A stretch of 64,000 nucleotides of DNA. Origin: Bacillus sp. DTU_2020_1000418_1_SI_GHA_SEK_038 (GTDB lineage Bacteria > Bacillota > Bacilli > Bacillales > Cytobacillaceae). Both the position numbers and the translations under genes were made by a program. Shown here one piece after another: positions 25,486 to 30,862 of the stretch (position 1 is its first letter; each line of letters opens with the position of its first letter). Under the pieces are notes generated by a model. It saw only the letters and a program-made list of their open reading frames with translations, searched no databases and was not told the DNA's origin. The stretch is taken from assembly GCF_032341175.1 (NCBI RefSeq), contig NZ_CP135435.1:2294001-2358000 (forward strand). The letters run 5' to 3'.

Positions 25486-26613
25486 CTATTTACTAGTTTC
25501 AAAAAACTTTTGGATTTCAAGATGTATATACTCCAATACCTTCACAATCTTGTCATCCTCATTTACTAGTGGAAGGCTCTTTCCTTTTATAGTCTGGAAC
25601 ACTGGTTTTACCATTGATTGACTGCTATTAACTAACCAATTTCCATTCATCTTCGTTAATTCTAGGTCAATAATACCAAGATGATTTCCCCAATAGCCAG
25701 CTTGTACAGCCGGGACCCCATTAATGGTTCCAGTTTCATCTTTTACACTGTAGAGGTTCTTCCAAGGGAAAATTAGATGGGTATGACCGTATAAAATAGC
25801 ATCGATCCCTTCTACTTCACTTAAAAAATATACAGAATTCCCCTCTTTCTCCTTTAAACCTTTGTCAGGATTTAATCCAACATGTGCAAGTGCGATTATG
25901 ATGTCTGCACCCATCTTTTTCATGATAGGTACAAAATGCTCAGCCGTATCCTGGATATTTTTTATCTTTAATTTACCTTGAAAATACTTCTTGTCCCATT
26001 CGGCTGCAATTGGGGTAAGAAAGCCGATAACACCAACTTTTAATTTTTGTTTATTTCCGTTAGTATCAATAAAGTTTCTATCTAAGATCAAAAACGGATT
26101 GAAATAATTAAGATCATCGCCATCGTATTGATTTTGATCATCTATATAAATATTGGCATTTACGTATGGGAACTTGGCTCCTTGCAAGCTTTTATGCAAA
26201 AAGTCTAATCCATGATTGAATTCATGATTTCCTACTGTTGCCGCATCATAATTAAGTCCATTCATCGCTTTGAATACAGGATGAAAATAATGATCGTCCA
26301 TATAGTTGGTTTTATCCACATATTCGTCTAGAGCACTTCCTACAAGTACATCACCTACATCAAAAAGCAGTGAATTAATTTCCTCTTCACGCGCTTGCTT
26401 GATAAGTGATGCAGTTTTGGCTAATCCGAATTCTAGATTCGGTTTATTTTTCTTATAATTAAAACCTAACATATGTGAATGCAAATCCGTTGTTTCTAAA
26501 ATTCGAAGCCGCAAGCTAGATTCCATGATCTCTTTGGCGTCTGTCCGATTTAAGACAATGAGCAAAAGGCTGATGATCAGTATGACTGGAATGATCACTT
26601 TTATTCTTTTCAT
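25486..26613 (-). CDS. CpdB/5'-nucleotidase-type metallophosphatase lacking the C-terminal domain
   Basis: 375 residues from the ATG at 26613 (AGTAAGGGGTG upstream). A single N-terminal membrane segment is followed by a calcineurin-like metallophosphatase domain: ILETTDLHSHMLGFNY, FDVGDVLVGS, GNHEFNHG, ALAHVGLNPD and GHTH. The order and the start LRILETTDLHSHM are those of 2',3'-cyclic-nucleotide phosphodiesterase/5'-nucleotidase (CpdB, YfkN). Family members normally continue with a C-terminal substrate-recognition domain, bringing them above 600 residues; here the frame ends at FFETSK and a hairpin follows, so this is a single-domain form. Substrate is not predictable. Confidence 0.82.
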   Translation of the reverse strand: MKRIKVIIPVILIISLLLIVLNRTDAKEIMESSLRLRILETTDLHSHMLGFNYKKNKPNLEFGLAKTASLIKQAREEEINSLLFDVGDVLVGSALDEYVDKTNYMDDHYFHPVFKAMNGLNYDAATVGNHEFNHGLDFLHKSLQGAKFPYVNANIYIDDQNQYDGDDLNYFNPFLILDRNFIDTNGNKQKLKVGVIGFLTPIAAEWDKKYFQGKLKIKNIQDTAEHFVPIMKKMGADIIIALAHVGLNPDKGLKEKEGNSVYFLSEVEGIDAILYGHTHLIFPWKNLYSVKDETGTINGVPAVQAGYWGNHLGIIDLELTKMNGNWLVNSSQSMVKPVFQTIKGKSLPLVNEDDKIVKVLEYIHLEIQKFFETSK

Positions 26614-26747
26614 CCAAACACCCCTTACTATATGTTTTCTTATTTTCTCTAATTTAGGTGATAATAATCGGATTTTAGCGAAATAGTTTATGCTTCCGTA
26701 ATTATGAATAATTGGGCACATGACTTAAGGTTCATATTATTGCACGT

Positions 26748-29730: not shown

Positions 29731-30792
29731 TTATTTATTCATTAATTGACCAATGTAATTTAGTTTTTCAGCTTCAATAGAATCAACTGCACCATCTAAT
29801 ATTTTTCTAATATCATTTAGAGTGTCATTTAAATCAACTGCTTCTCCCTGTTTTCCCGTGAAGGCTTCAGCAACATAAAATGGTTGTGTTAAATAAGCTT
29901 CCAGTTTTTCACCGCGTGCAAAGGTTTGAGTTTCGGCAGCTGGGAGCCGCTCTATCCCACCAACATTTACTAATAACCGGAGTTCACGATAGCGACGAAG
30001 AAGTTTTTGGGCTCGCTGCTGGATATTGAGGTGATTTTGGTCAAGATGCGCTCCTTCAAGTACTGAAGAAGTTGAATAGATTGGATTAACGGCAGGGAAT
30101 TTATGTCTTGCTGATAAATCTGCGTCAAATTGCCAAACGGTTTCCAACGGTCCATATGGTAAATCTTCATCAACTGCTTCCCCTTTTAAATCAACGAGAA
30201 ATGTTGTAACTGAATTGATATCAATAGCTTGCAATTTTTCTTGGAGCTCATAAATATCCCCTGTTAAAACATGGCTCCTGTCAGCTGCAAAAGCAATCTC
30301 ATTTGCTTTTCCTTTTTCAGCTATTGCTTCATATGCTTCTTCAATTGAATGGACGATAATATCTGTATTAATTTTTACATCGTTTAATTCTGGATAGTTC
30401 CCTTCTGGCATGAGCAGAACTGTAACATACTGATCTTTCTTCAGTCTGAAAAATACTTCAGATAGTAAGACAAGCTGCCCCATCCCATGACGTGCAACTA
30501 ATCCAATCGTGCCGCCCTTGGCAAGCGGAGCAAATAAATCAAGCGTTTTTATCTTAGTCTCGATCATTTCAATTTTCTCCCCTCTAATGATTAATTCATC
30601 CAAACTACATTCCGCAAGCTCAGCAAGAGCCGCTAAAGTTCGAACTTCACATCTGCCAACTGGAATTTTTCCGGTACACAAATTTGAAACAGTGGCCGGC
30701 CGTAAACCTACAGATTTAGCTGCAGTCGTCAAATTAGGTACCTTTTTTCGTAAAAGTGCCACATTCAATTTTAAATTTTCCAGTTTTCCCAC
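29731..30792 (-). CDS. XRE-type HTH protein fused to a degenerate F1-ATPase beta-like domain
   Basis: About 350 residues. Residues 3-70 form a Cro/C1-type helix-turn-helix (LTTAAKSVGLRPATVSNLCTG). From about 77 onward the sequence follows the ATP synthase beta subunit: IETKIKTLDLFAPLAKGGTIGL (AtpD: [22 protein letters not shown]), KFPAVNPIYSTSSVL (IYPAVDPLASTSRAL), LLRRYRELRLLVNVGGIERL and YLTQPFYVAEAFTGKQG (FLSQNFHVAEQFTGQ). The P-loop GGAGVGKT is replaced by ARHGMGQL, so catalytic Lys is gone, and the region holding the catalytic Arg and Walker B is shortened. It looks like a DNA-binding regulator built on a dead nucleotide-binding fold. Start is uncertain: GTG at 30792 overlaps its ribosome site; CTG or TTG a few codons later are possible. 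Confidence 0.8.
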   Translation of the reverse strand: MGKLENLKLNVALLRKKVPNLTTAAKSVGLRPATVSNLCTGKIPVGRCEVRTLAALAELAECSLDELIIRGEKIEMIETKIKTLDLFAPLAKGGTIGLVARHGMGQLVLLSEVFFRLKKDQYVTVLLMPEGNYPELNDVKINTDIIVHSIEEAYEAIAEKGKANEIAFAADRSHVLTGDIYELQEKLQAIDINSVTTFLVDLKGEAVDEDLPYGPLETVWQFDADLSARHKFPAVNPIYSTSSVLEGAHLDQNHLNIQQRAQKLLRRYRELRLLVNVGGIERLPAAETQTFARGEKLEAYLTQPFYVAEAFTGKQGEAVDLNDTLNDIRKILDGAVDSIEAEKLNYIGQLMNK

Positions 30793-30795
30793 CCC

Positions 30796-30862
30796 TTTAC
30801 TTTATAAGGTAATATATTTTACTTTTAAACGCAATATTATTTTACTTTTCAGAGTAATTAAT
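30796..30862. promoter_or_regulatory. Three operator-like direct repeats upstream of the HTH/F1-beta-like gene
   Basis: Copies of TTTACTTTn(n)Annn(n)AATAt begin at 30796, 30818 and 30841, a spacing of 22-23 bases, or two helical turns. They cover the promoter region right up to the ribosome site. Protein bound at all three would lie on one face of the DNA, so autoregulation by the encoded HTH protein is plausible (inference). Confidence 0.5.

Follow-up and report, generated by a model that had tools for sequence, protein, structure and literature searches.

An XRE-type HTH domain on an F1-ATPase beta fold: a candidate ligand-sensing regulator from Bacillus and its predicted operator array

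This regulator, a predicted DNA-binding protein with a C-terminal part derived from the F1-ATPase beta subunit (AtpD), is encoded on the minus strand of the window, the 64,000-nucleotide stretch of a Bacillus sp. genome that was analysed (Table 1). The initial annotation of this open reading frame (ORF) described an HTH running into an AtpD-like part, and profile searches bear this out, with a Pfam HTH_26 match followed by matches to ATP-synt_ab, ATP-synt_VA_C and AtpD. Two start codons can be considered, a GTG and a candidate CTG (30781-30783). The CTG seems somewhat the more likely of the two, because the GTG sits within the Shine-Dalgarno-like AGGGGTG and because the codon matching the CTG is ATG, TTG or GTG in 55 of 78 loci. 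A start three codons earlier, as with the GTG of the window, is found in three of the 78 (L003, L018 and L081). The database record, P0002, likewise has 350 amino acids. About 3 kb past the 3' end of the regulator gene, and outside its operon, lies an ORF (25486-26721) that by eye resembles a 5'-nucleotidase/metallophosphatase.

Table 1. Features of the regulator locus, with the array-linked M3 genes of other genomes. Positions are those of the window unless a contig label (L) is given.
Feature	Position	Strand	Basis or remark
HTH/F1-beta-like regulator gene	29731..30792, including stop	minus	ORF read from sequence
Alternative starts	GTG at 30792; CTG at 30783		353 aa from GTG; 350 aa from CTG
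Shine-Dalgarno-like AGGGGTG	30790..30796	minus	read from sequence; 6 bases before CTG
XRE/Cro-type HTH domain	30577..30774	minus	about residues 4-69 of 350-aa form; PF13443 E 1.6e-4, AlphaFold helices
F1-beta-derived domain without N-terminal beta-barrel	29734..30579	minus	residues 69-350 of 350-aa form; profile and fold matches
Former P-loop ARHGMGQL (GGAGVGKT in AtpD)	30472..30495	minus	Gln at Walker lysine in 75/75 distinct relatives
Promoter-like TTGCGT-17 bp-TACCTT	30806..30834	minus	inside operator sites 2 and 3; read from sequence
Operator site 3, TTACCTTATAAAGTAA	30797..30812	minus-strand reading	over -10 region; predicted
Operator site 2, TTGCGTTTAAAAGTAA	30819..30834	minus-strand reading	over -35 region; predicted
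Operator site 1, TTACTCTGAAAAGTAA	30842..30857	minus-strand reading	predicted
Array-linked M3 gene	L120:5016-6719
Array-linked M3 gene	L121:11081-12772
Array-linked M3 gene	L123:5101-6774
Array-linked M3 gene	L124:3306-4991

The HTH match is marginal, residues 8-69 scoring 22.3 bits with HTH_26 against a cut-off of 22. In the AlphaFold model this part forms five helices (8-14, 18-24, 29-37, 47-56 and 61-64), and its stretch GLRPATVSNLxTGK is almost invariant across the relatives. Searched alone with phmmer, the HTH gave a weak Cro match (E 0.96); two plant receptor matches with a better E (0.026) were taken as chance. On the remaining chain, ATP-synt_ab stayed under its cut-off (27.5 against 29.5 bits) and ATP-synt_VA_C exceeded its own. 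The top NCBIfam family was AtpD (TIGR01039, E 2.1e-35), at 122.4 bits far under the cut-off of 462.85, followed by three F1-beta-like families at 104-109 bits and then by FliI and V-type A at 39 and 37 bits. Against the PDB, phmmer found F1 beta at E 1e-30. A structure search also gave F1 beta as the best fold match for residues 69-350; its rows covered these residues and thus carry no information on the HTH part. The kinship to F1 beta, for which a search with the C-terminal part had been proposed as a check, therefore holds by profile, by PDB sequence and by fold.

HTH and effector-type domain lie within a single chain, and the crown of F1 beta is absent: residue 69 of the model aligns with about residue 130 of F1 beta, and the residues before it match HTH_26. 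The C-terminal helical domain had been described as well kept. This is so in outline, two of the four acidic DELSEED positions tested being acidic in most relatives (66/75 and 74/75); the other two acids are lost, and the tail is shortened. As far as can be judged from sequence, these features support a DNA-binding-type protein on an F1 beta fold without the phosphate-binding loop. With neither Walker A nor crown, it is not a working F1 beta. A PADLOC-DB search of the regulator for anti-phage defence families returned none at E 0.01.

Full-length relatives are numerous. The best 120 of 805 (E 0.001, 8,000 candidates scored) each span 98% or more of the query, and the fusion is present on 32 public contigs; an assembly artefact joining separate genes, or a chance fusion, is thereby ruled out. 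When a distant relative served as the query, the best 120 of 911 matches all covered at least 95% of it, and these included sequences from Paenibacillus, Alicyclobacillus and Symbiobacteriaceae, as judged by source names. The regulator is otherwise found in Bacillaceae and Caryophanaceae. Whole-genome searches at E 1e-60 detected the gene in 40 of the 199 order-sample genomes, counting the one studied here; at E 1e-40 it was present in 7 of 250 genomes sampled from the class and in 2 of 299 sampled from the phylum. Its occurrence is patchy even inside genera. Database names for the relatives are often those of an ATP synthase subunit, others being HTH protein or hypothetical. A 516-amino-acid relative from Paenibacillus tarimensis (P0230), named DnaJ family domain-containing, carries an extra PF09350, possibly a further fusion. 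Among 33 regulator loci, no neighbour gene is conserved across genera. A mobile-element origin was rejected, as 1 of 72,556 plasmid records matched at E 1e-40 (an 897-kb Paenibacillus replicon). Among 50,697 phage records 17 matched as well, but no match extended over 80% of the query; the best 10 of the 17 have 79% coverage and 23-26% identity, and three of them are annotated as ATP synthase beta and seven unannotated. This bacterial family is widespread and apparently unstudied.

The former nucleotide site was compared in 75 distinct proteins from the 78 loci. The initial annotation had GGAGVGKT replaced by ARHGMGQL, and the replacement is confirmed throughout the family: the Walker A lysine is Gln in 75/75, the next Thr is retained in 1/75, and the preceding glycine is retained in 75/75. 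The equivalents of bovine Glu188, Arg189 and Arg260 are kept in 9, 1 and 0 of the 75, and are mostly replaced or deleted. Glu192, which like Asn257 and Ala421 we take to be a nucleotide-site contact in F1, is kept in 41/75, and the Walker B Asp in 73/75. Both the stretch following Walker B and the loop found in place of the F1 VPADDLTDPAP segment are deleted or rewritten. Within the phosphate sub-site the F1 residue is the majority residue at 2 of 10 positions, with the alignment unsure in the deleted stretch; within the adenine sub-site it is so at 8 of 8. For background, the majority residue of the family is the same as that of AtpD in 77 of 279 aligned columns. Adenine and ribose contacts are kept at Val164 (73/75), Pro346 (75/75), Gln416 (75/75), Phe418 (74/75), Ala421 (73/75) and Thr425 (66/75). 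Tyr345 is found in 51/75, the remaining 24 having Phe, and Phe424 in 54/75, with Tyr or Trp in 18 more. The other nucleotide contacts are those named in PMC5608556, PMC6597759 and PMC9615146, where yeast and bovine numbering are off by one in places. The aurovertin site was rejected as a conserved ligand site, being remodelled and not kept when compared at the aurovertin contacts given in PMC9615146. The cleft has conserved charges of its own, Arg229 (73/75), Arg266 (75/75), Arg272 (72/75) and Glu298 (75/75) in the 353-residue numbering.

One would not expect an inactive enzyme with a purely scaffolding role to retain such a pocket, and for this reason the adenine pocket may be read as a ligand site. 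It could also be structural inheritance. One candidate ligand is a physiological adenine metabolite (adenosine, adenine or a related nucleoside or nucleotide), whose binding would tune scavenging and the use of peptide or amide nitrogen. The pattern of kept adenine/ribose contacts and mostly lost phosphate contacts suits such a sensor, as do the peptidases and amidases described below, which would serve nutrient scavenging. It fits poorly with the efflux genes and with partners that resemble an aminoglycoside adenylyltransferase, and the partners differ by lineage, which is closer to a xenobiotic response than to core metabolism. Sensing of an adenine metabolite is therefore rather unlikely in our estimate.

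The predicted promoter of the regulator gene is spanned by 16-bp palindromes, TTACTTTATAAAGTAA, in tandem. Three of them (six half-sites) are present, spaced 22 and 23 bp apart. An array precedes the gene in relatives as low as about 50% identity; these arrays have at least three palindromes 21-25 bp apart, and 23 plus 22 is the commonest spacing pair (31 of 67 promoters with a score over 18). A PWM was trained on 31 promoters (L001-L032 minus the truncated L011) and applied to 46 held-out promoters, three of them identical to a training promoter; 44 of the 46 scored above all 920 control windows of the same loci. For the two failures, the array was found about 340 bp upstream of the regulator (G190), or before an amidase gene 10 bp upstream of it (G145; E 0.0034, weaker than the best control match). 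A -35/-10 pattern is predicted within the array in 54 of 77 promoters; the controls show it in about 2-4% of cases, with 29 of 1560 for 61-mers taken at random and 50 of 1340 for arrays after shuffling.

Whole genomes give a similar picture. R1, a sequence-only array profile from 44 sequences, gave a best match under 1e-3 in 43 of the 46 gene-bearing genomes, many of which had contributed to its training set, and in 0 of 46 gene-lacking genomes, where the best was 0.00166. A two-site pattern occurs in the genome studied here at the regulator promoter and nowhere else (reversed control 0), and a looser form of it in 20 of 46 gene-bearing genomes (reversed control 7/46). The strict single-site pattern gave 6 strand hits at 4 places in this genome, two of the places at the regulator promoter, which is not above the reversed control (11). 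The two matches elsewhere, inside ORFs read by eye as secY and GtrA-like, were taken as chance, and no second array was found in the genome. In Sutcliffiella horikoshii (L022), a lone strong operator-like site, TTACTTTAAAGAGTAA, lies outside the array, 1384 bp before the regulator match. The sequence evidence for the array as a putative operator over the regulator's own promoter is strong. With the predicted -35 and -10 both under palindromes, repression is the effect most readily expected, and the regulator presumably represses its own gene.

Arrays are also found before other genes. At least eight such non-self arrays, spread over 6 of the 46 genomes that carry the regulator, have E values below every control match among the matches listed; the counts are lower bounds, a stricter filter having been used in the R1 scan of more than 40 genomes. 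None came from the training set, each is located at the 5' end of an ORF, and seven outscore the controls by bit score as well. The array of G034 is marginal (20.5 versus 21.1 bits for the best control), and three sites are readable there. The genes that follow are M3 oligoendopeptidases (G003, G193, G078 and G167), an FmdA/AmdA-type amidase (G167), an alpha/beta hydrolase and an ABC exporter (both G195), and in G034 an F1-beta-like paralog of 269 amino acids (L088:4122-4931) that lacks both HTH and P-loop and stands behind its own operator-like sites. The ABC exporter ORF, taken at its greatest length, extends into the array; with a start 45 bases inside that reading, it would begin just behind the array. 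Eight weak R1 matches (L127-L131 and L133-L135) were not counted: seven are inside ORFs, three of these being the same gene in one genus, and one is intergenic (L133, E 0.011).

The four array-linked M3 proteins all exceed the cut-off of TIGR02289 and keep HExxH, and Pfam Peptidase_M3 matches one of them. Among the 62 TIGR02289 matches of these genomes, these four have the lowest scores. When a tree was built from them and 30 of the remaining 58, a branch (98/99, flagged for possible long-branch effects) had all four on one side, and no array was present upstream of any of the 30. They thus appear to form a divergent subgroup of M3 oligoendopeptidases tied to the operator. The FmdA-type proteins score 46-79 bits against an NCBI formamidase cut-off of 500. 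With Peptidase_M3 matching just one in four and the FmdA-type proteins far under that cut-off, substrates are not readable from family names.

Further partners adjoin the regulator gene itself. An FmdA-type gene does so in four loci (downstream in L020, L063 and L084, upstream in G145), and an alpha/beta hydrolase gene in another four (L052, L055, L057 and L061); the gaps are -67 to 30 bp, and the loci are scattered on the regulator tree. In six Sporosarcina loci (L008, L009, L011, L013, L014 and L015) the next co-directional genes, 57-126 bp downstream, are similar to one another, and the two of the six that were scanned (L008 and L014) both match the aminoglycoside-2''-adenylyltransferase family. 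An EmrB-like efflux gene is next in G038, 188 bp downstream. Neither the Sporosarcina partners nor the EmrB-like one has a separate array, and their co-transcription with the regulator across gaps of 57-188 bp is assumed. A co-directional ORF is present within 250 bp downstream in 39 of 78 loci, and the rest of these are mixed and mostly unrelated. On the regulator tree, 13 partner-labelled rows are as scattered as shuffled labels, or more so, which suggests that one sensor has probably been paired repeatedly with different genes.

The initial annotation had the protein report ATP synthase assembly or adenylate state. To do so it might dock on F1 alpha or gamma, or enter mixed rings, and the F1 beta fold with its many kept core residues, C-terminal domain included, would suit that role, as would the two DELSEED positions that remain acidic. 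Other observations do not support it. The ordinary atp operon of the same genome, with intact AtpD, has no operator at a 5-bit cut-off in the 16 kb scanned, and none of the eight non-self arrays is at atp genes. The phosphate site is destroyed, with central segments deleted or rewritten. The genes found behind arrays or adjoining the regulator encode mainly hydrolases, efflux systems and modifying enzymes, and those linked to arrays are unrelated to energy conservation, except for the HTH-less copy of the regulator. A role in reporting ATP synthase assembly or adenylate state is accordingly very unlikely.

In 40 of the 46 carrier genomes, the genome studied here included, no non-self array was found below the best control E among the matches listed. 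Self-regulation alone could therefore be the rule, with a wider regulon directly visible in a minority of genomes. Such a distribution would suit a decoy, a protein that soaks up an F1-binding toxin and controls nothing beyond its own amount, and the HTH-less copy that stands behind such an array in G034 could be read in the same way. Enzymes and an exporter under the array in other genomes exceed what sequestration calls for, and we give the decoy scant credence. The HTH-less paralog was also rejected as a general partner of the regulator, since it was detected in just one of the 40 order-sample carrier genomes (G034, E 1e-24). It could be a modulator of mixed rings if the F1-like part were an oligomerisation platform and nothing else, forming three dimers or a ring that binds the array cooperatively with no ligand. 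Arrays of at least three palindromes at 21-25 bp would accommodate a platform of this kind, although the six half-sites of the window are as compatible with the absence of a hexamer as with its presence. A full adenine pocket would not be needed for it, and the hydrolase partners point to an inducer, so that this explanation seems quite improbable.

On balance, a ligand-sensing repressor with a detoxification role is somewhat favoured by the features of the locus and its relatives. HTH dimers would sit on each 16-bp palindrome of the tandem array, and their occupancy over -35 and -10 would repress the regulator's own promoter cooperatively. The sensor would be the former F1 beta, in which the alignment places an HTH where the crown barrel was, with the phosphate machinery gone and the adenine pocket kept. 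A small molecule in or near this formerly catalytic pocket would release the operators, and derepression would lead to more regulator being made. In some lineages, peptidases, amidases, alpha/beta hydrolases and efflux pumps under or next to the array would remove the inducer, which would be nucleoside-like or an F1-binding xenobiotic. Nutrition is a further role of M3 peptidases and of amidases, and this counts against a detoxification role.

A more specific possibility, tentative and on present evidence unlikely, is target mimicry, in which the dead F1 catalytic subunit is a receptor for natural products that act at the F1 beta nucleotide site or for a nucleoside-like toxin. An HTH would have been coupled to this receptor, and unrelated removal enzymes and pumps attached to it in different lineages. 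If target mimicry were true, a single sensor shaped like the target would respond to inhibitors of diverse chemistry, and this would explain why partner genes differ so much.

Several known systems resemble the regulator in part. Residues 69-350 are most like AtpD by profile and fold and share its adenine/ribose contacts, whereas the crown barrel, the Walker A Lys and Thr and most of the residues at the bovine Glu188, Arg189 and Arg260 positions are missing, an HTH has been added, and the gene lies outside the atp operon. With XRE/Cro-CI regulators it shares the HTH type (HTH_26) and palindromic operator-like sites over its own promoter; unlike theirs, its effector domain is F1-derived. We know of no other XRE protein with such an effector domain, and no report of one was found in openly licensed PMC papers. 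Rho and other RecA/F1-fold hexamers have N-terminal nucleic-acid-binding domains, and Rho is an active RNA-dependent ATPase. As in Rho, a nucleic-acid-binding-type N-terminus is joined to an F1-related core, but in the regulator the ATPase machinery has been lost and the N-terminus is an HTH. The sensor domain of BlaR1 resembles an enzyme. In the BlaR1/BlaI system (PMC9834060), a membrane receptor that is acylated by the drug detects the antibiotic, and resistance genes under a separate repressor are derepressed. The likeness is one of logic only, as sensor and repressor are predicted to share one chain in the regulator. The regulator would fit among the one-component HTH repressors, for which its effector domain would be new.

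Few enzymes are as conserved as the F1 catalytic subunit, and one branch of it appears to have been turned into a transcription factor. Through the ATP synthase subunit names given to relatives of the regulator, a genome can be annotated with a second AtpD that is not genuine. For the family itself, the array-linked genes provide a handle on the inducer, and possibly on new substrates of peptidases, amidases, hydrolases and efflux systems.
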